From positions 1 to 26,672 of the forward strand of contig BEIR01000001.1 of NCBI GenBank assembly GCA_002898855.1: DNA of 26,672 bases, in the 5' to 3' direction. A program made the position numbers and the translations under genes. The first letter of the stretch is position 1. Every line of letters begins with the position of its first letter. The notes beneath the pieces are model-generated. The model searched no databases and was not told the origin of the DNA. It saw nothing but the letters and a program-made list of their open reading frames with translations. This DNA is from a bacterium HR41 (GTDB taxonomy: Bacteria > Actinomycetota > Thermoleophilia > Solirubrobacterales > Thermoleophilaceae). Of the stretch, positions 5,040 through 15,590 are shown piece after piece.

Positions 5040-6095
5040 TCACACCAGCGGAGTGCCAGCGGCACGGGCGGCCGCGATAGTTGCGCGGAGTGTGCGTAGC
5101 GCCGTGTGGCGCGGTTTCCAACCGAGCAGTTTCTGGGCGCGCTCCGTCCGCATCAGTACAGGGCGGCGCAACGCGTGAACCCAGGCAAGCTCGGCGGGGG
5201 CTCCGGGGAGGCGGCGCAGGGCCTCGCCGCCCGCGATCAGCGCCGCGCGAGGCACCGGAACGGCGTGCCAACCAAGCTCGTGGGCGAGCCTTGTGATCGT
5301 GAGCGTGCCCGGTGCAGCAAGGTTGTACGGGCCCGGCTCGCCACGTCCCAACACTGCCGCGACGAAGGCTTGAGCGACGTCGTCTTCGTGGACGAGCTGG
5401 AAGGGAACCCCGGGATCGGGCAGCACTGGTCGCAGCAGCGGGGCGGAGCGCGCGAGACGCACGAGCGGCCCCGGTAGCGAGCGCGCTGCGCGAACGTAGG
5501 GCAGCTCCTCGATCAACGTTCGCGCTCTTGGCCCGGCGATGATGCAGGGACGCAGGACCCACGCCTGGGTGCGCGCGCCGGCGGTTTCAAGCAGGGCGTT
5601 GAGCGCGCGTTCGACCGCGGCCTTTTGCGCGGAATAGGGATGCTCGGGGGAGCCGAGCGCCGGCTGCTTTTCGTCGATCCGAGCTGGCAGTTCAGGGCGG
5701 AAGCCGTAGGCGGCGACACTGGATGCGTAAACGATCCGGCGCACGCCCGCTTCGATCGCCTCCTCGAAGACCGTGCGCGACCCACCGACGTTGATCTCAC
5801 AGGTTGCGTCGGATGCGGACAGAACAGCGAATGCCAGGTGCACGACGACGTCGGCGCCACGTACGAGTTCGCGTACCGCGTCGCGGTCGGCGACGTCGCC
5901 CTGCAAGTACTCGAAGCGCTGCCAACCCGCGCTCTTGGGATCGAAGGGGCGGCGGGCCATTCCGACGACCCGGGCGATCCGCCGGCTGCGCAGAAGCGCC
6001 GGTACGAGCGCGCGGCCAAGGTCGCCGGTTGGGCCGGTTACGGCGACCGCTAGCTGGGCGTTTTGTGGACGGCGCTTGACGGTGTCGGTTGCCAT
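5040..6095 (-). CDS. NAD(P)-dependent epimerase/dehydratase family protein (extended SDR)
   Basis: A 351-residue extended short-chain dehydrogenase. The N-terminal Rossmann motif VTGPTGDLG (19-27) binds the dinucleotide. The Asp of GDVADRDAV, the HLAFA strand, the catalytic Ser region YASSVAAYG (123-131) and Tyr154/Lys158 in YSAQK are all present, so the active site looks intact. The C-terminal half (PFQLVHEDDVAQAF, PYNLAAPG) matches the substrate-binding part of sugar-nucleotide epimerases and sterol/flavonoid reductase-like SDRs. It starts at ATG 6095 without an obvious Shine-Dalgarno, is separated from the alcohol dehydrogenase by 82 bases and could be transcribed alone. Substrate unknown. 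Confidence 0.88.
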   Translation of the reverse strand: MATDTVKRRPQNAQLAVAVTGPTGDLGRALVPALLRSRRIARVVGMARRPFDPKSAGWQRFEYLQGDVADRDAVRELVRGADVVVHLAFAVLSASDATCEINVGGSRTVFEEAIEAGVRRIVYASSVAAYGFRPELPARIDEKQPALGSPEHPYSAQKAAVERALNALLETAGARTQAWVLRPCIIAGPRARTLIEELPYVRAARSLPGPLVRLARSAPLLRPVLPDPGVPFQLVHEDDVAQAFVAAVLGRGEPGPYNLAAPGTLTITRLAHELGWHAVPVPRAALIAGGEALRRLPGAPAELAWVHALRRPVLMRTERAQKLLGWKPRHTALRTLRATIAAARAAGTPLV

Positions 6096-8564: not shown

Positions 8565-9701
8565 TCATCCGGCCGCGGCTAGCAGCCGAGCGAGTTCTTC
8601 GCCCGCAACCTTCACGCCGGATCCCCAAGGCGATGTGTCGGCGACCCGCGCCTGGAACGCGCGCTCGCCAACCAGCCGGGCTTCCAGATAGAGGGGCTTC
8701 TCGGGTGTGATCAGCACCGCTTGCAGGGATGCGCGGAAGGAGCGACAGCCGGCGTCGGCGAGACCGAGCCGTGTCGCTAGGCAGTCGGCTGCGACATCGG
8801 CTTGCTGGCAGGCGAGGCCACCGTGTTTGACTGGGAACGGTGTGGCGTCGCCGACGCAGAAGCAGTGCCCCTCGGTGTCGACGATCCGACAGCTCGAGTC
8901 AACTGGTATCCAGCCGCCCTCGACGCTCGGCAGGCCAGGCAGAGCGGGTCCGACGAGCCGGGGGAGGGCAACGACGCGATCGAACCGAAACTCTTTGCCG
9001 TCGGCGGTGCGCACCAGGCCGCCGGGCCCAACGGTCGGCACGGTGGCGGTGTGCAACTCGACGCGGTACCGCGCGGCGAGCTCGGCGACGCGCGTGCTAG
9101 CCGGTTCACCGAAGATCTCGAGCGGCCGCCGCTCCGGGGTGAAGAGGTGGATCGAACACGACCGCGGCGCCGCCTCGCGAGCACGACCGCCGAGCAACAA
9201 CGCAATCTCGTAGGCGGGCAGCGGCCACACCGGCCCTTCTGGCAACAAAACGGCGACGCGGCGGCAGTAGCCACCCTCTAGGTCCTGCACGACGCCCCGC
9301 AGGCTGCGGTCGGCGTGGAGCGGGTCGAGCGTCGTGGCGTGCGACCAGGCGGGCGATGCGTGTGCGCCGACAGCGACGATCAGACCGTCCCATGCGATCG
9401 ACTCGTCCCCGGTCGTGTGCACGACGCGCTGCTCGCAGTCGACCCGGGTGGCGCCACCACCGACGATGCGTGCCCCGGTGCGTTCACCGATCTCCCGCCA
9501 AGGGATGCGTCGGGCGGCCGGCAGCGCGAACGGCTCGCGCACGGTCTCGGCGAGCACGACGAGTTCCGCGCGCGGCGTGAGGACGGTCAGCGACGCGCGC
9601 CCGTGCGGCGCGTACTTCGCTAAACGCAAGGCTGCCTCTGCCGCCGCAATCCCGCCCCCGAGGATGAGGCAGTGGGGACCGCTCGTGCGCACGTCGGACA
9701 T
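8565..9701 (-). CDS. FAD-dependent pyridine nucleotide-disulfide oxidoreductase-like protein
   Basis: A 378-residue two-dinucleotide-fold flavoprotein. The FAD-binding GGGIAAAEAALRLAK motif lies at 15-29, a short second segment (WDGLIVAVGAH) follows near 104-114, and the C-terminal FAD motif CFCVGDAT lies at 280-287 (Asp285). The closing segment VKHGGLACQQADVAA resembles the quinone-interacting end of NDH-2 and sulfide:quinone oxidoreductase-like proteins. The redox CxxxxC of disulfide reductases is absent. The second dinucleotide-binding motif is degenerate (VAVLLPEGPVWPLPAYE), so NADH may not be the donor. It starts at ATG 9701 and precedes bioA by 34 bases. The role is unknown; a quinone-linked dehydrogenase is the best guess. 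Confidence 0.75.
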   Translation of the reverse strand: MSDVRTSGPHCLILGGGIAAAEAALRLAKYAPHGRASLTVLTPRAELVVLAETVREPFALPAARRIPWREIGERTGARIVGGGATRVDCEQRVVHTTGDESIAWDGLIVAVGAHASPAWSHATTLDPLHADRSLRGVVQDLEGGYCRRVAVLLPEGPVWPLPAYEIALLLGGRAREAAPRSCSIHLFTPERRPLEIFGEPASTRVAELAARYRVELHTATVPTVGPGGLVRTADGKEFRFDRVVALPRLVGPALPGLPSVEGGWIPVDSSCRIVDTEGHCFCVGDATPFPVKHGGLACQQADVAADCLATRLGLADAGCRSFRASLQAVLITPEKPLYLEARLVGERAFQARVADTSPWGSGVKVAGEELARLLAAAG

Positions 9702-9873
9702 CGGATTGAGGCTAGCGCTGCCGCCTCGCGGCCGCCTCGAGCGTGTCAGCTAGCGCCATCTTGTTGCGATGTGTTAAGAAAGCGCGAACCGCTGCTAAGC
9801 GCAGCCCGGTTAGTAAGCCTCAACTCCTGTCCCTCGAGCCGGCGCGCTCGCGTGGTCGGCCCGTGTTCGAAGC

Positions 9874-10083
9874 ATGCGCAGATTCGTACCGAGCGAGAAA
9901 ACCCTCCACATCTTCGCAGTCTGGGCCTTCGCTGTAGCGAAACCAGTTTACGACGTGTTCGCTCGCAGCCCAGATTTTTTCGTCGTACGCGGTAACCGTG
10001 CCCTCGACGTAGTCGTCCTAGCGCTGGTCGTTGGGCTTGTCCCGCCACCGGTAGCGGCCCACACGGTGCCCCACTCGACGTAG
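9874..10083 (+). pseudogene. 5' fragment of a frameshifted LtaS-like membrane sulfatase gene
   Basis: From ATG 9874 the frame encodes 69 residues: a short basic start, one hydrophobic helix (IFAVWAFAVAKPVYDVF), and the beginning of a second (ALDVVVLALVVGL) that ends after 55 codons in an unrelated tail and a TAG at 10081. That tail is the spacer between two identical 36-bp repeats. Joining codon 55 to the base after the second repeat restores one continuous frame with the large downstream gene, for about 848 codons. I therefore read this as the detached N-terminus of that gene, not as an independent small protein. Region 9702-9873 upstream shows no supportable gene. Confidence 0.65.
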
Positions 10084-10109
10084 TCGTCCTAGCGCTGGTC
10101 GTTGGGCTT
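10003..10109 (+). repeat. 36-bp direct repeat with 71-bp offset, disrupting a coding frame
   Basis: The same 36 bases, beginning CTCGACGTAGTC and ending GTTGGGCTT, occur at 10003-10038 and 10074-10109. The 35-base spacer is itself loosely similar to sequence around the second copy. The offset of 71 is not a multiple of three: copy 1 is in frame with ATG 9874 and copy 2 with the large sulfatase frame. This looks like a tandem duplication, later diverged, or an assembly error. Confidence 0.9.
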
Positions 10110-10178
10110 CTCCTCCCGCTGCTAGTCGCTGCGATCGCGCGTCTGCTCGACCGCTTCTATCGCCACGCTACCAGCCTT

Positions 10179-12491
10179 GTGATCGCAATCCTGTTTGCTT
10201 TAGCTGTTGGCCAGTTCGTGAGCAGTTGGCCGGCGGCTGTCTGGCTAGTCGCTGTCGCCGTCTCTGGCTATCTAGGTTTTCGTTTGTACGAGTGGCACGC
10301 GCCGGTTCGGTCAGCGCTTTCGTTCCTCGCTCCAGCCGGTGTCTTGTTTCTTCTCTGGTTCCTGTTCTTTTCCCCCGTCAAAAAGGTTGTCCTGGTATCC
10401 GAAGTGCAGACGGACGACGCAACAGTCGTCGCAGCGTCGACCTCCCGGCCGATCGTGTGGGTCATCTTTGATGAACTTAATGCAATTGCTCTTCAAGACC
10501 GTAACGGGCATATCGACTCTACGCGTTTTCCGAATTTTGCACAGCTAGCGCGGTCCTCCACATGGTACGTTAACGCTACCACGACGCATAGTTCAACCAC
10601 ATTAGCTGTGCCCACTCTGCTCACGGGGCGGGTAGCGAAGCGTAACGATCTGCCGAATGTCACTGATCATCCTACGAATGTCTTCACACTTCTCGCGGGA
10701 CGTTACCAGTTCCACGTAGAAGAGCCCCTCACTCGGTTGTGCCCCGAATCTATGTGTCATAGGCGCGATGCTAGTTTTGCGGCTCGCCTTCGCTCGCTGT
10801 TCAATGACGGGTCCGTTATCGCTGCACGCATTTTGGCCCCGGACTGGTTTGATCGGAGGCTGCCTAGCGTCGAGGCGGCCTTTTCGGGCTTTGGCTGGCA
10901 AGGCTCGGGGTCGCCAGACGGTAGCGGTCGCTCGGCCGGCGAAGGCGCTGATGGTGACAGCTTGTCTACCGCGGTCACGGCCCCGCAGAGATTTCTGCAC
11001 TTCATCAAGGGGGTTAAGCGCCGCGGCGCACACCCAACCCTAAACCTGGCACATGTTGAACTACCACATGTTCCCTGGCGTTATACACCTGATGGGACTA
11101 CCTACGGGCGAGGGAAGATTGACACGCCTGGCTTGTACATGGAACGGTGGGCTCGTGATCAGGGCGCAGTGCGATCTGGGCTGCAGCGATTTCTGCTTCA
11201 AACCATGTACGTTGATCGCCTTCTAGGGAAACTGATAGCACGCCTGAAGAAAGTGGGATTGTGGAATAGTGCTGTGATTGTGGTCACAGCGGATCACGGC
11301 GTCAGCTTCCACCCGGGCTTGCCGCGAAGGGCGGCTCTAAGACCCAATGTGGCCAGCATCGCTTCGGTGCCGCTATTTATTCGGTATCCCGGCCAAAAGC
11401 GTGGGCGGCGCGATCAAGCATTCGTGACAACAACCGATGTGCTCCCAACCGTGCTTCGCGCTGCTGGCGTGTCGGTACGCGGCGTCCGGTTCGATGGACG
11501 GGACATTAGACGTGGTGCAAGAAGAACGGGAACCGTGTCGGTACGGGGTTACACGGAGGTCAACGGACGGTCGATTTCCTACGGCGTTCTCGAGGTGTCG
11601 TCCCGCGAGTTTTTGCAACGGCTAAAGAGTGATCGGCGTGCGTACGTCGCGGTTTTCGGTGACAAGGATGGGGGACGGAACGTTTGGGTACCCCTACCTT
11701 GGTCCAGACCAGCTCAGTACGGGGACAACGTGGTGCGCGCGTCGACGACGCCAGATCGAATCGGTCCTCGCGTTACTTTGGAAGGGTCACTGGCAATTCC
11801 GGGCGTGTGGCGGGTGCCCGGGCACGGGGTTGTTGGGATTCGGGGGAGAGTTGAGGGCGTGTCGGCAACGGTGGCCTCGCAGACAGCAGTGGCTGTGTAT
11901 CGGGGACGCCGTCTTGTGAGTGTCGCGCCGGTCGTGCGCGAGAGAGACCGCAGCATCTTTGTCGCGATCGTCCCGCCCGGTGAGGGTGGACAGAGCAGGG
12001 CAGCGTTGGCGCTCGAGGTGTGGGTTAAGTCTCAGGGGGTGATCAGGGCGACACGGCAGAACGTGCCGGAGCTAGCGGGGATTCGTCTCGTCGCCCGTAA
12101 CGGTCAAACGTGGCTCGTTGGTGAGCGTCCGCTGGCGCGTGTGATTAAAAGTGGAAGCGTGGAATGGTTGGTCGACGCGATTTCGGTTAATCAGGGACTT
12201 ACGGTTTTGGACGGTTGGGCAGTGGATCGTGCACTAAGGCGCCCAGCACAGCAAATTGTGGTTGTGTTGGGTGAGCGTGTAATCGGTCTTGGGCAGATGG
12301 TGCGCGTCCGACGCGACATCGCGCAGATGTTCGGCACACGGAAGGTGGCAAAAAGTGGATGGCACGCCCCGTTACAAGTCCGGCTTCGAGGTTCAGACCT
12401 GCGAAAGCTGCGAGTCTTTGCCTTAAGTGGAGGGAATGCCGTTGAGCTGAAGCTATGGGAGCCCGCGCTTAAGCGCGCCAACCTGGGTTAA
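10179..12491 (+). CDS. Membrane-anchored sulfatase/alkaline-phosphatase-fold protein (LtaS-like), N-terminally disrupted
   Basis: The open frame from GTG 10179 encodes 770 residues. Two transmembrane segments (about 1-34 and 46-66) precede an extracytoplasmic sulfatase-fold domain. Metal-binding FDE lies at 97-99, a nucleophile-type Thr/Ser cluster THSSTTLAVPTLLTG at 136-150, AHVELPH near 291-297 and the metal-binding TADHG at 370-374. The family covers lipoteichoic-acid synthase, phosphoglycerol and phosphoethanolamine transferases and sulfatases. Residues ~470-770 form an unrecognised beta-rich-looking region. Frame comparison shows three more helices encoded upstream but cut off by the 36-bp repeat, so GTG 10179 (no Shine-Dalgarno) is probably not the native start. 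Lower GC and different codon choice than neighbours suggest transfer. Function is uncertain and the copy may be a pseudogene. Confidence 0.7.
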   Translation: MIAILFALAVGQFVSSWPAAVWLVAVAVSGYLGFRLYEWHAPVRSALSFLAPAGVLFLLWFLFFSPVKKVVLVSEVQTDDATVVAASTSRPIVWVIFDELNAIALQDRNGHIDSTRFPNFAQLARSSTWYVNATTTHSSTTLAVPTLLTGRVAKRNDLPNVTDHPTNVFTLLAGRYQFHVEEPLTRLCPESMCHRRDASFAARLRSLFNDGSVIAARILAPDWFDRRLPSVEAAFSGFGWQGSGSPDGSGRSAGEGADGDSLSTAVTAPQRFLHFIKGVKRRGAHPTLNLAHVELPHVPWRYTPDGTTYGRGKIDTPGLYMERWARDQGAVRSGLQRFLLQTMYVDRLLGKLIARLKKVGLWNSAVIVVTADHGVSFHPGLPRRAALRPNVASIASVPLFIRYPGQKRGRRDQAFVTTTDVLPTVLRAAGVSVRGVRFDGRDIRRGARRTGTVSVRGYTEVNGRSISYGVLEVSSREFLQRLKSDRRAYVAVFGDKDGGRNVWVPLPWSRPAQYGDNVVRASTTPDRIGPRVTLEGSLAIPGVWRVPGHGVVGIRGRVEGVSATVASQTAVAVYRGRRLVSVAPVVRERDRSIFVAIVPPGEGGQSRAALALEVWVKSQGVIRATRQNVPELAGIRLVARNGQTWLVGERPLARVIKSGSVEWLVDAISVNQGLTVLDGWAVDRALRRPAQQIVVVLGERVIGLGQMVRVRRDIAQMFGTRKVAKSGWHAPLQVRLRGSDLRKLRVFALSGGNAVELKLWEPALKRANLG

Positions 12492-12546
12492 GCGGGCTAC
12501 GCTGCCGTGCCTCACGGAGAGGCGGGCGCCGCGAGGTGTGTTCCCT

Positions 12547-13944
12547 TCACGTTCGGGGTTGGTCTACGTCACACGCAAGCGCCCAACCGGCCTCGCGCCA
12601 CGTGGTGACCCCACCGTCGGCGACGTGCAACACGTTGCGTACGCCGCACCGGAGGAGGAGGCTCGCGGCGGTGCCGGCCCGCGAACCAGTGCCGCAGACG
12701 GTTGCGACGGGACGCTCCGGATCGAGCGCGGGCGGGAGCTCGGTGAGCTCGTGATAAGGAACGTTGAGCGATCCCGGGATGTGGCAACGCCGCCACTCCG
12801 TTCGCTCGCGCACGTCCAGCACCTGCAGGCCGTCGCCGGCAACTACGCGCTCGCGCAGCTCGGACACCGAGAGGCGTGCCACCCGCTCTACCGGTCGTCG
12901 TTCCTCGCGCCAACTCGTCATGCCCCCGGCGAGAAACCCCGAGATGCGGCGCAATCCGACCGCCTCGGCGAGCGCCACCGCGTGACGACCGTCAGCATCG
13001 TCGCGCCCCACGAACACGATCTCCTGATCGCGGTCGGCGATCCAAGCGAGCTTGGTGCCGAACCCTGCGCCCGTGGCCGGTATCGAGACGGCGCCGGGCA
13101 CGTGCGCCTCGTCGAACTGCCGCGCTGTACGTACGTCGACCACGAGCGCGCCCGCGTGTTGCTTGAGCAGCACCTGGCGTGGAGTCAGTGGGCGTGCCTC
13201 GACACCCTCGATCAGCAGGGGCCCGCGATTGAGCGCCACGATCGCCTGGAAGTTAGGTGGCTGTGGCGGCAGATCGCGTGTCGCGCGGTCGACGAACTCG
13301 TCCTCGTCGGTCACGGCCAGCATCTCGTTGTGCAGCCGCTCGTAGCCGAGCGTCGACACCGGTTTGCGGTCGACTGTGTCGCCGCCGCACAGCGACCCGC
13401 CGATGTGGCCCGGCCAGATCTCGACGTGCTCGGGAAGCTCGAGCATCCGCCGCAGCGAACGGAAGATGCCGCGTGCGCCCTCGTGCTTCTCGATTGCGAG
13501 ATCGGGACGGGCGATGTCGCCAACGAACAGCGAGTCGCCCGTGAGTAGCGCCCAAGGTTGCTGCGATCGGCGCACGTCGTAGAGGAGAAAAGCGGTGTGC
13601 TCGGGACGGTGCCCCGGCGTGTGCAGGGCTCGAATGCGCACATCGCCCAGCGAGAGTTCGAAACCATCGTCGAACGGTTCGTGCTCGTAATCGGGCGATG
13701 CCAGCCGGTGAATGTGAATCGTGGCGCCGGTAGCGGCGGCCAGACGCCCGTGCCCTGACACGTGGTCAGCGTGATTGTGCGTTTCAAGGATGTGCTCGAT
13801 CGAGAGCCCGTGGTAGCGAGCGATTTGCAGGTATTCGTCGATCTCGAATTTCGGATCGACAACCGCGGCTCTGCCGGTGCGCTCGTCGCCGACGAGGTAC
13901 GAGGCGCAACCGAGGTCGTCGTGCATCACTTGACGAAAAATCAC
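12547..13944 (-). CDS. ETHE1-like metallo-beta-lactamase protein with two rhodanese domains
   Basis: A 465-residue fusion. Residues 1-~235 are an MBL-fold domain of the ETHE1/glyoxalase II group: THNHADH at 55-61, His112 (HTPGH), Asp137 (TGDSLF) and His180 (WPGH) supply metal ligands. ETHE1 enzymes oxidise glutathione or other thiol persulfides to sulfite. Two rhodanese domains follow. The first (~253-348) has DVRTARQFDEAHVPGA but no Cys in the active loop (IVFVGRDDADG), so it should be inactive. The second (~360-455) has Cys417 in VCGTGSRAG. Its GTG start overlaps the stop of the upstream ArsR gene in GTGA, implying translational coupling. With the divergent TauE/SafE permease the likely job is persulfide/sulfide detoxification, with sulfite as product. 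Stop TGA 12547. Confidence 0.9.
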   Translation of the reverse strand: MIFRQVMHDDLGCASYLVGDERTGRAAVVDPKFEIDEYLQIARYHGLSIEHILETHNHADHVSGHGRLAAATGATIHIHRLASPDYEHEPFDDGFELSLGDVRIRALHTPGHRPEHTAFLLYDVRRSQQPWALLTGDSLFVGDIARPDLAIEKHEGARGIFRSLRRMLELPEHVEIWPGHIGGSLCGGDTVDRKPVSTLGYERLHNEMLAVTDEDEFVDRATRDLPPQPPNFQAIVALNRGPLLIEGVEARPLTPRQVLLKQHAGALVVDVRTARQFDEAHVPGAVSIPATGAGFGTKLAWIADRDQEIVFVGRDDADGRHAVALAEAVGLRRISGFLAGGMTSWREERRPVERVARLSVSELRERVVAGDGLQVLDVRERTEWRRCHIPGSLNVPYHELTELPPALDPERPVATVCGTGSRAGTAASLLLRCGVRNVLHVADGGVTTWREAGWALACDVDQPRT

Positions 13945-14390
13945 CGCCGACCACCTCCCGCTGGGGGTTGTTCGCCGTTTGCGCGTGGCGCCGGGCGGCC
14001 CACCAGCCGCCTGCTGCTAGCCGTGCTGCTGCCCGCAACGTCCGGACTTTCGCCCGCGACCAAGCGCACCAGGGCGTCGATCTCGCGCTGCAAGCTGCCG
14101 CAGACGAGTTCGCACATTTCGAGCACGTACGGGTCGGCAATGCGGTACAGGGCGCGCGTTCCCTGCTTGCGCCGCGAGACCACGCCCCGTTGCAAAAGCA
14201 CGCTCAAGTGCTTCGAGACGTTTTGTTGCGTAGCGGCGAGCCGCTCCACCAACTCACCGACCGACAGTTCCCCTTCGCGGCGGAGCTCGTCGAGGATCTG
14301 GAGCCGCAGCGGGTCGGCGAAGGCAGCGAAGCGCGCGGCGATCAGCTCGGCGACGTGTCTGGGCAGCGGGCTCGGGAGGGACCACGTCAC
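13941..14390 (-). CDS. ArsR/SmtB-family transcriptional regulator
   Basis: From GTG 14390 the product is 149 residues. The winged helix is clear: FADPLRLQILDELRREGELSVGELVERL, recognition helix TQQNVSKHLSVL, and the wing VSRRKQGTRALYRI. The helix after the wing contains Cys93 and Cys97 (MCELVC), a CxxxC pair that could sense persulfide, metal or redox state. The N-terminal Cys used by BigR/SqrR-type sulfide sensors is missing. The frame remains open upstream of 14390 but that sequence is low-complexity and the domain starts here. The gene's stop overlaps the start of the ETHE1/rhodanese gene (GTGA). By position it probably represses itself, its coupled partner and perhaps the divergent permease. 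The C-terminal ~40 residues are a disordered Ser/Pro/Gly tail. Confidence 0.88.
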   Translation of the reverse strand: MTWSLPSPLPRHVAELIAARFAAFADPLRLQILDELRREGELSVGELVERLAATQQNVSKHLSVLLQRGVVSRRKQGTRALYRIADPYVLEMCELVCGSLQREIDALVRLVAGESPDVAGSSTASSRRLVGRPAPRANGEQPPAGGGRR

Positions 14391-14590
14391 CGTGTCGCGA
14401 GCGGCCGGGGCACCTCGGCTCTGACGGACGTCGCCGCCGCTACGGATGCCGCGACCACCCGGCCGGTGGTCGGTCAGCTCCCCGCCCTCGCCGCTGTTGC
14501 GGTTGCGCGAAGCGAGAGGGCTTCCTGGCGTTGGTCGCGAGGGCGAACTCACGACAAGGACTATAGCTCGATCGCCATACATCAGTACAG

Positions 14591-14679
14591 TTGTGCTTGT
14601 GGTCGCGGGCACAATCACTGCGAAGATCGGTGCCGGGGGGTGGTTGCAGAGATGCCTCGTGCAGTGAGCGGGCACTCAC
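14591..14679. promoter_or_regulatory. Candidate operator repeats between ArsR and TauE/SafE genes
   Basis: The 261-base divergent region 14391-14651 is GC-rich apart from an AT-richer patch near 14560-14600. Two inverted repeats are visible nearby: TTGTGC (14591-14596) with GCACAA (14609-14614), and GTGAG (14664-14668) with CTCAC (14675-14679). A TATAGT-like hexamer reads toward the ArsR gene at 14565-14560. Either repeat could bind the ArsR regulator; neither is strong enough to be sure. The second lies downstream of the ATG chosen for the permease. Confidence 0.3.
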
Positions 14680-15590
14680 GGGCAAGGCTCTCGGCCCACG
14701 AGGGGCGACCAGACGCCGGCAGGTGCGCGAGACCTGGAAGCGACCGCTCGGACGCGACGTCTGGGCGTCGCGAGATCCCACCGACACTGCCGCTTGCGGT
14801 GGCGGGCGCCCTCGGCGCGGTGGTCGTGGGAGTGCCCGCGGTGACCCTGGCCATTGGCCTTACGACCGGCCTTGTGGTGGGAGCGACCGGTGCGGGCGGT
14901 TCCGTGCTTGCCCTGCCGCTCCTTGTTCATGTCGCAGGCCAGGATCCGCACACCGCTGCGGTCACCGCCCTCGGTCTGGTGGCTGCAGCAGCGGCGGTCG
15001 CGCTGCCAGCACATCTGCGCGCGCACCGCGTTTGCCCGCGACACGGGGTCGCCTTGGGCGTGCCGGTTGTAGCGGCTGCGGTGGGCGGAGCGCTCGTCGG
15101 TCGTGCACTCCCGCCACGTGTCGTCGCGCTTGGCATCGCCGGCGCACTCGTCGTCGGCGCCGTGATCGTGTGGCGCGGCCTTGGCGGCAGCGGGCCTGGG
15201 AAGGTCCTGCCGAGCGAGGTCTGTCCACCCGTTCGCCCGCTTGCCGCGCTTGTCTCCGCAGCCATCGTGGGCGCGCTTGCGGGCGCCTTCGGTGTCGGCG
15301 GCGGCTTCATCGCTTTGCCGCTACTCGTCGGCTTGCACCGCCTGCCCGAGCACGCCGCTGCGGGGACCGCAGCGCTCGTCGTCGGCCTGGGCGCCGGGGC
15401 GGCGCTCTGCACCCACCTCGTCGCCGGCGAGCCGGCGCCGCTTACGGCGTGGGCGGGTCTGATGCCCGGCGTTCTCCTCGGCGTTCTGGTGGGCGCGCGG
15501 CTTTGCGGAGCACTCTCGCAGATCGCGCTGCGCCGAGGTACGGCTCTGCTACTCGCAGCGGTGGCGGTACCGATGGCCCTCGCAGGCTGA
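14652..15590 (+). CDS. TauE/SafE-family membrane permease (putative sulfite/sulfonate exporter)
   Basis: An integral membrane protein with two homologous halves typical of TauE/SafE. The first half has GLTTGLVVGATGAGGSVLALPLL and the second GALAGAFGVGGGFIALPLLV, each with the Gly-rich re-entrant motif followed by a helix ending in a Pro-Leu-Leu. About seven to eight hydrophobic helices can be counted. Family members export sulfite, sulfoacetate or similar organosulfur anions. The placement, divergent from the ArsR-ETHE1/rhodanese unit, fits sulfite export after persulfide oxidation. The start is uncertain: ATG 14652 gives 312 residues with a 49-residue polar leader of poor coding quality, while GTG 14799 would give a more usual 263 residues starting just before the first helix. 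Confidence 0.85.
   Translation: MPRAVSGHSRARLSAHEGRPDAGRCARPGSDRSDATSGRREIPPTLPLAVAGALGAVVVGVPAVTLAIGLTTGLVVGATGAGGSVLALPLLVHVAGQDPHTAAVTALGLVAAAAAVALPAHLRAHRVCPRHGVALGVPVVAAAVGGALVGRALPPRVVALGIAGALVVGAVIVWRGLGGSGPGKVLPSEVCPPVRPLAALVSAAIVGALAGAFGVGGGFIALPLLVGLHRLPEHAAAGTAALVVGLGAGAALCTHLVAGEPAPLTAWAGLMPGVLLGVLVGARLCGALSQIALRRGTALLLAAVAVPMALAG

Follow-up and report, generated by a model that had tools for sequence, protein, structure and literature searches.

Cas1-Cas2 is said to integrate spacers noncanonically, at off-target sites (reportedly Nivala, Shipman and Church, 2018), and, to our knowledge, most work on such integration has relied on overexpressed or purified integrases. Off-target Cas1-Cas2 integration has been described in vitro for the type II-A system of S. 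thermophilus (PMC6895254), and Cas4/1 of type I-G is the subject of a further report (PMC10274657). The locus described here resembles the known cases in having a spacer-sized insert between duplicated, repeat-sized copies of its target, outside an array. It differs in that the host is an uncultured bacterium, the geometry is 36+35, two sites occur in one genome, one site breaks a coding gene, and a target motif is not established. In the accessible parts of the literature searched, which lay largely outside subscription journals, we came across no naturally occurring type I-G scars of this kind. On the evidence below, we consider it very likely that the locus arose by off-target integration of a 35-bp prespacer by a Cas1-Cas2 integrase into a sulfatase-family gene.

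The interrupted gene and its intact relative

The window (the whole 26,672-nucleotide stretch that was analyzed) belongs to a 1.61-Mb assembly of 285 contigs that is 72% complete. The features of the site are as follows.

9874..10083, + strand: upstream gene piece, an ATG frame of 69 codons with the stop TAG at 10081-10083 (frame reading; identity with database protein P0002)
10003..10038, no strand: 36-bp target copy 1 (target duplication, or "repeat"), 36/36 identical to copy 2
10039..10073, no strand: spacer-like 35-bp insert, 77% G+C, at a single place in its own genome
10074..10109, no strand: 36-bp target copy 2, identical to copy 1
10074..12491, + strand: downstream gene piece, 805 residues in frame with copy 2, 785/805 identical to P0002 residues 44-848
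10986..11471, + strand: best Sulfatase (PF00884) stretch of the downstream piece (Pfam, E 7.7e-21)

The original prediction had placed a 36-bp sequence twice at a 71-bp offset, with copy 1 in frame with the ATG at 9874 and copy 2 in frame with a 770-codon sulfatase frame; all of this was verified. The exact direct repeat is far beyond chance: the longest exact repeat within 500 bp in 50 simulated windows was 17 bp, and the next longest close exact repeat in 296,434 bp of the same genome (the window and 20 other contig stretches) was 20 bp. The bases bordering the two copies differ on both sides and, because identity breaks off at both ends, this is no simple tandem duplication; the 35 bp repeat neither the sequence after copy 2 nor that before copy 1.

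The predicted product of removing one unit, an 848-residue protein, exists as P0002, which is recorded from jgi and ena contigs and unites the frames on either side but lacks the insert (848 = 43 + 805). The upstream frame equals P0002 through residue 55 by direct reading, with a BLASTP alignment covering residues 1-43. Because P0002 joins both frames without the insert, the one-copy form appears ancestral, so that the uninterrupted target of the window site is present, at the protein level, in a relative. As 71 is not divisible by three, the reading frame shifts beyond residue 55 and translation ends after 69 residues, and the gene product is probably lost. The idea of a repeat-linked frameshift in a newly broken gene is thus supported.

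The first ATG, GTG, or TTG start in the downstream piece is the GTG at 10179, which gives the 770 codons. It is hardly credible that this is the true start and that the gene is intact, with an irrelevant upstream frame. The 770-codon frame is open and contains the Pfam sulfatase match, but P0002 begins with the cut-off upstream frame and appears to refute this start largely by itself. Homologues beginning at the equivalent codon, named beforehand as evidence against a frameshift, were not seen: all 24 aligned database proteins (P0002 and 23 others, from 120 listed of 622 and chosen mostly for high coverage, with shorter members outside the set) begin upstream of it.

The sulfatase domain was borne out, with a PF00884 score of 75.1 bits against a gathering cutoff of 25, which places the protein in the sulfatase superfamily. 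The proposed likeness to lipoteichoic acid synthase (LtaS) held in part. As in LtaS and other sulfatase-fold membrane enzymes, a hydrophobic N-terminal region precedes a sulfatase-family domain, and LtaS structures are among the PDB matches; unlike LtaS, P0002 falls far below the family cutoff (34.4 versus 970 bits in the LtaS-specific NCBIfam model). Five transmembrane helices had been predicted, whereas P0002 showed three or four hydrophobic stretches in a simple hydropathy scan. Ranked by score, P0002 is followed by a sulfatase-like protein of Thermoleophilum album (38%).

Geometry of the insert and a second site

The extra 71 bp at the window site consist of the 36-bp exact target duplication and 35 bp that occur once in the genome (one place in the assembly with up to 3 mismatches allowed), and the insert has 77% G+C compared with 59% for the gene. 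The resulting 36+35+36 layout matches that of a single CRISPR repeat-spacer unit. We rejected local template switching (a hairpin or inverted copy) as the source of the 35 bp, whose alignments in the surrounding 1.2 kb were no better than those of shuffles (139/200 and 148/200 shuffles matched or beat the best alignment on the two strands).

This composition also bears on the suggestion of a reversible on/off switch, that is, phase variation in which a repeat unit is gained and lost. Recombination between perfect direct repeats of 36 bp at this 71-bp offset could delete one copy, making a change from off to on possible. The insert, however, is not a duplicated unit, and turning the gene off would require a fresh integration because 35 bp of other sequence lie between the target copies. 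The relative's protein has the one-copy form, which leaves no existing second copy to restore the insert from, and the insert has no local template better than shuffles. These features speak against recurrent, interconvertible states built on standing repeats, and we regard the switch as very doubtful.

A close-repeat scan at offsets of 37 to 399, covering 1,089,193 bp of the genome (141/285 contigs, 18 of them in partial length), returned nine 36-base windows with at least 31 matching positions. The two top matches, 36/36 at the window site and 35/36 on contig C71, both lie at offset 71; the offsets of the remaining seven are all divisible by three. The second site (C71:5933-6039, L125) has the same 36+35+36 structure, with one mismatch between its copies. 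At both sites the target duplication is 36 bp, the repeat length by comparison with relatives' repeats, and the insert is 35 bp, the length of a spacer. The two targets have 9/36 bases in common and the inserts 11/35, and both inserts are absent elsewhere in the assembly. The offset-71 pair was already apparent in a smaller scan of 994,107 bp.

An assembly artefact had also been proposed. In that case, or with a mixture of strains, the contig would loop wrongly across a 36-bp word plus 35 bp of foreign DNA. Such an origin became less likely because the C71 site, on another contig, has the same structure at a 71-bp offset. The fragmented, incomplete assembly, the record of the intact relative's protein from jgi and ena contigs, and the 69-amino-acid truncated product, found in the protein database from this window only, would all fit such an error. 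Two sites of identical geometry do not, and neither insert was found elsewhere in the assembly. The C71 copies differ by one mismatch, and all other close 36-base matches in the 1.09 Mb scanned have offsets divisible by three. We judge an artefact unlikely.

CRISPR arrays beside Cas1 in five relatives (G013, G045, G057, G059, and G039) are built on repeats close to 36 bp long, and the commonest array period in relatives is 71 (52/199 pooled intervals; range, 69 to 80), although it varies by genome, with modes of 75 in G045 and 70 in G039 and a period of 74 in the mini-array of G001. Across 99 loci of relatives, some overlapping (1,056,812 bp; offsets 37 to 199), matches of at least 34/36 cluster at offsets of 69 to 76 and their doubles, which are arrays, with single cases elsewhere. 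The window and C71 sites are like the arrays of these six genomes in their approximately 36-bp repeats, approximately 35-bp spacers, and the pooled period of 71. They are unlike them in that the 36-bp copies are local host sequence, different at each site, that each site is a single unit, and that any hairpin of the window target is no stronger than those of shuffled sequences. Neither is a canonical array with a shared repeat, a leader, and several spacers, the two being single units with 9/36 bases shared.

G001, the sole same-genus genome in the set, carries a Cas4-Cas1 fusion best assigned as Cas1g (E 2.1e-171), Cas2g (E 2.2e-27), and a one-spacer array with a 36-bp repeat; Cas subtyping covered G001 proteins only. 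Beyond this mini-array, no further 36+35+36-type site was recognized in 774,371 bp of G001. Close repeats as such are not unique, because G001 has three 36/36 matches, at offsets 84, 120, and 369; among the 15 matches listed for it, 12 lie at offsets divisible by three and the others at 74 (the mini-array), 44, and 37.

Proposed integration model and its implications

In the proposed mechanism, a Cas1-Cas2 integrase would insert a 35-bp prespacer within the membrane sulfatase-family gene and not into a CRISPR array. A staggered double attack across the 36-bp target, followed by gap filling, would duplicate the target and yield 36+35+36, and the 71-bp gain would shift the frame and leave a truncated protein. 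The integrase is probably the Cas4/1-Cas2 complex of a type I-G CRISPR system, which the source species presumably has or had.

Repair of a staggered double-strand break, in which end filling duplicates 36 bp and nonhomologous joining captures 35 bp of filler with no CRISPR enzyme involved, could in general yield a like anatomy of duplicated flanks and filler, and the assembly yielded neither cas1 nor cas2. It does not account for exactly 36 and 35 bp at two unrelated sites on two contigs, nor for their sum being the commonest pooled array period of relatives, and we hold it to be rather improbable.

Off-target integration suggests that such an immune system can introduce mutations into genes of its own host. 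We think it fairly probable that the Cas4/1-fusion adaptation complex acts as a natural insertional mutagen that left at least two 36+35+36 chromosomal scars, one of them knocking out a cell-surface enzyme gene. Natural cases would show a mutational cost of adaptive immunity, gene breakage, and the possible seeding of new arrays. Since the lengths of the duplication (36) and of the insert (35) indicate the likely enzyme class even where no sequence matches, they provide a simple search rule for other genomes. If this reading is true, the scar geometry is exact enough to search any genome, and natural off-target rates could therefore be measured from assemblies alone. For annotation, some short-repeat frameshifts may be CRISPR scars and not phase switches or assembly errors.

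Integrase, target, and protospacer searches

Neither Cas1 (one of the searches run without a positive control) nor Cas2 was found in the 72%-complete assembly, and the scanned contigs held no CRISPR array. Relatives' repeat patterns gave 0 matches in this genome, and another search gave 1 (with 2 mismatches) versus 2 for the reversed control. Compared with relatives' repeats, the window target on the + strand ranks among the top 2.5% of random 36-mers; the three remaining target/strand combinations are unremarkable, and the likeness is weak overall. Folding of the window target does not exceed that of shuffled sequences (z of -0.55 and -0.20), and the first C71 copy gave z of -2.02 on the + strand, in a register unlike that of the arrays' hairpin, and -0.10 on the opposite strand. 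No motif common to the two targets was detected (9/36 identical). The intergenic flanks of the C71 site were unmatched in G001 and G002, so no empty site was recovered there.

Among viral contigs, none had an exact match to four protospacer patterns, and the best phage or plasmid matches (plasmids for the window insert only) had E values of 0.1 to 0.3, which are not significant. The best phage matches of the two inserts are to actinobacterial phages, of Microbacterium (25 bases, 92%) and Gordonia (20 bases), each with an E of 0.1.

Several smaller observations concern the repeats and the insert. At the window site, 9/15 of the first bases after the copies agree, compared with only 2/15 before them; this agreement between the start of the insert and the sequence after copy 2 exceeds that of the rest of the insert, is unexplained, and counts against the CRISPR reading, as does the one mismatch between the C71 copies. 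A 52-nucleotide repeat family at 88% rests mainly on the 36 identical bases. We also considered and rejected gene conversion from a paralogue: a match on contig C40 (79%, E 0.007) is located some 700 bp beyond the match to the paralogue on that contig, and it did not resemble a paralogue's N terminus. The reading VPPPVAA resembles a family motif of the aligned homologues, a similarity that we treated as chance.

A split gene and its intact counterpart

The assembly that holds the window as contig C1 is fragmented (1,610,524 bases in 285 contigs, 72% complete). Re-reading the frames bore out the original prediction that a 36-bp repeat splits a gene, with the repeated target lying at two positions:

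10003-10038, 36-bp target, copy 1
10074-10109, 36-bp target, copy 2

In 50 simulated windows, exact repeats less than 500 bp apart reached 17 bp at most, versus 36 bp here, and the runner-up among close exact repeats in 296,434 bp of the same genome (the window and 20 other contig stretches) was 20 bp. The upstream frame, from ATG 9874, stops after 69 codons. Starting from copy 2, the downstream frame spans 805 residues, contains the sulfatase domain, and has GTG 10179 as its earliest available ATG, GTG, or TTG.

When the downstream piece was used as a protein query, 622 proteins matched at E ≤ 0.001. Among the best 120 of these, the top match was the 848-aa P0002 (98% identity across the full length searched; its 6 member sequences lie on 2 contigs, which come from jgi and ena), and the next by score was 38% identical. 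BLASTP found residues 1 to 43 of the upstream frame identical to the start of P0002, direct reading extended the identity to residue 55, where copy 1 ends, and the downstream frame matched residues 44 to 848 ungapped at 785 of 805 positions. Because P0002 matches both frames without the insert, the window carries 71 bp that are absent from this relative, which points to one copy as the ancestral state. Searched against the protein database, the 69-aa product matched only the window itself, so the insert is seen in no other assembly of that database. The insert takes the protein out of frame after residue 55 and ends it after residue 69. Homologues beginning at the equivalent of GTG 10179 would have spoken against a broken gene; all 24 that were aligned, chosen from the 120 listed of 622 mostly for high coverage, have sequence upstream of that codon, and normal function has therefore likely been lost, judging from the sequences.

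Anatomy of the insert and a second site

The extra 71 bp consist of the second target copy and a 35-bp interval. A plain duplicated unit of 71 bp was rejected, since the interval is other sequence between the target copies. The G+C content of the interval is 77%, that of the gene 59%, and that of the window 68%. The interval occurs at one place in its own genome, allowing up to 3 mismatches, and a search for a template within the window on either strand gave best alignments that shuffled sequences equalled. At its start, 9 of 15 bases agree with those following copy 2, which is probably chance in GC-rich DNA.

A target duplicated around a short foreign piece is the trace left by an integrase, and 36 and 35 bp are ordinary lengths for a CRISPR repeat and spacer. 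The likeliest account of the window structure is that a CRISPR spacer was integrated off target, in nature, and thereby broke the gene. Gap repair after prespacer joining duplicates the CRISPR repeat. In canonical adaptation, Cas1 joins both prespacer 3′ ends to the leader-repeat and repeat-spacer junctions (PMC10274657). Such joining and gap repair on a non-array 36-bp stretch would produce exactly the observed 36+35+36 arrangement. Other papers describe integration by purified Streptococcus thermophilus Cas1-Cas2 into an array-less plasmid at sites like the leader-repeat junction (PMC6895254), integration at non-array genome regions when Cas1-Cas2 is overexpressed (PMC11788318, citing Nivala 2018), and frequent off-target integration by type V-C Cas1 (PMC13034035). 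On this reading, the window case would belong with these already described off-target spacer integrations. Nivala 2018 reportedly also noted putative natural examples in genome records.

A genome scan for 36-base sequences recurring almost exactly at offsets of 37 to 399 covered first 994,107 bp (121 contigs) and then 1,089,193 bp (141 of the 285 contigs, 18 of these incompletely). In the enlarged scan, nine 36-base windows matched at no fewer than 31 positions. The top match (36/36, offset 71) was the window repeat, and the second (35/36, with one mismatch between target copies) was a different 36-bp target around a different 35-bp insert, again at offset 71, on contig C71 (L125, 5933-6039). 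The remaining seven had offsets of 54, 84, 87, 111, 171, 174, and 198, all divisible by three, as would be expected of in-frame coding repeats. In the given orientation, the window and C71 sites share 9 of 36 target bases and 11 of 35 insert bases, so they are not one repeated element. The C71 insert is unique within its own genome and was absent from G001, a genome of the same genus. The C71 structure is probably intergenic, with a frame that stops at 5857 and matches no Pfam family on one side and, on the other, a Tad-type pilus gene presumed to start at about 6101, ∼60 bp past the site; other frames run open across it in GC-rich DNA.

The recurrence of the same lengths at a second site makes an assembly artefact an unlikely source of the window structure. 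Nor is a switch supported: CRISPR arrays lose units by repeat recombination, and the window's perfect 36-bp repeats could likewise recombine to drop one copy, but this would be a one-way reversion. Of the earlier interpretation, the repeat-associated frameshift and the newly broken gene are supported, and the reversible on/off switch is not.

CRISPR systems of relatives and counter-evidence

A Cas1 search of 61 genomes was positive in 7, including G001, the sole same-genus genome among the 61. Five of the seven loci fetched around Cas1 (G013, G045, G057, G059, and G039) held arrays with repeats of about 36 bp; in degenerate parts of the G059 array, exact repeat runs were shorter. Across 199 intervals in five arrays, leaving out the second array of G057, the commonest period was 71 (52/199), followed by 72 (40), 73 (35), and 70 (27). 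Modal periods were 71 in G059, 71 and 72 tied in G013, 71 and 73 tied in G057, 75 in G045, and 70 in G039. One G057 contig (C49, in part L140) carries two arrays with different 36-bp repeats, and its second Cas1 match lies on the other strand, split in two pieces.

No array was found in the loci surrounding Cas1 of G001 and G014. The G001 contig ends shortly past cas2 (L136 8839-11071, cas4/1 and cas2), and another begins with a one-spacer array (L193 819-928; repeat 36 bp, period 74) whose repeat end resembles those of G013, G045, and G057. The G001 Cas4-Cas1 fusion (560 aa) scored best as Cas1g and its 97-aa neighbor as Cas2g, by which the pair is assigned to subtype I-G, a subtyping that covers G001 only. 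In 99 loci of relatives (1,056,812 bp, with some overlap between loci), nearly all matches of at least 34/36 fell at offsets of 69 to 76 and their doubles, i.e., arrays, with single matches at 42, 44, 51, 55, 80, 84, 102, and 120. In 774,371 bp of G001, which has the machinery, no further site was recognised beyond the one-spacer array, and the offsets of three 36/36 matches (84, 120, and 369) were multiples of three.

Neither Cas1 nor Cas2 was found in the 72% complete HR41 assembly; for Cas2, 1 of 16 genomes searched was positive (G001). Searching the HR41 assembly with patterns based on the repeats of relatives yielded 0 hits, or one 2-mismatch hit versus two for the reversed control. With 28% of the genome missing, these absences are weak but real counter-evidence to a CRISPR origin. 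A protospacer search for the inserts found none, which also counts against this origin, as do the lack of further sites in G001 and the mismatch between the target copies on C71. On the plus strand, the window target ranked in the best 2.5% of random 36-mers for repeat likeness and shared 16 of 36 bases with the G057 repeat; as the sole such result among four target/strand combinations, this moderate likeness does not hold up.

The broken gene and its surroundings

The broken gene is a member of the sulfatase superfamily. Remote PDB matches include LtaS structures, the best match overall being a phosphonate monoester hydrolase, and the LtaS family score lies far below the cut-off. "LtaS-like" suits the layout of the protein but does not name its family. 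In P0002, a pattern scan detected a TADHG motif and no sulfatase motif of the form C-x-P-x-R or S-x-P-x-R. Paralogues on contigs C40, C72, and C4 (36 to 42% identity) could back up its function.

The stretch at 9700-12500 has a G+C content of about 59%, versus about 65 to 73% in 1-kb windows elsewhere, and long matches to the gene in 60 relatives are about 33 to 41% identical (among the matches listed). Together, this composition and low identity hint at horizontal acquisition. Beside the broken gene lies what is likely a sulfur-metabolism pair:

12547-13944, minus strand, metallo-beta-lactamase and rhodanese protein
13968-15590, plus strand, TauE/SafE-type exporter
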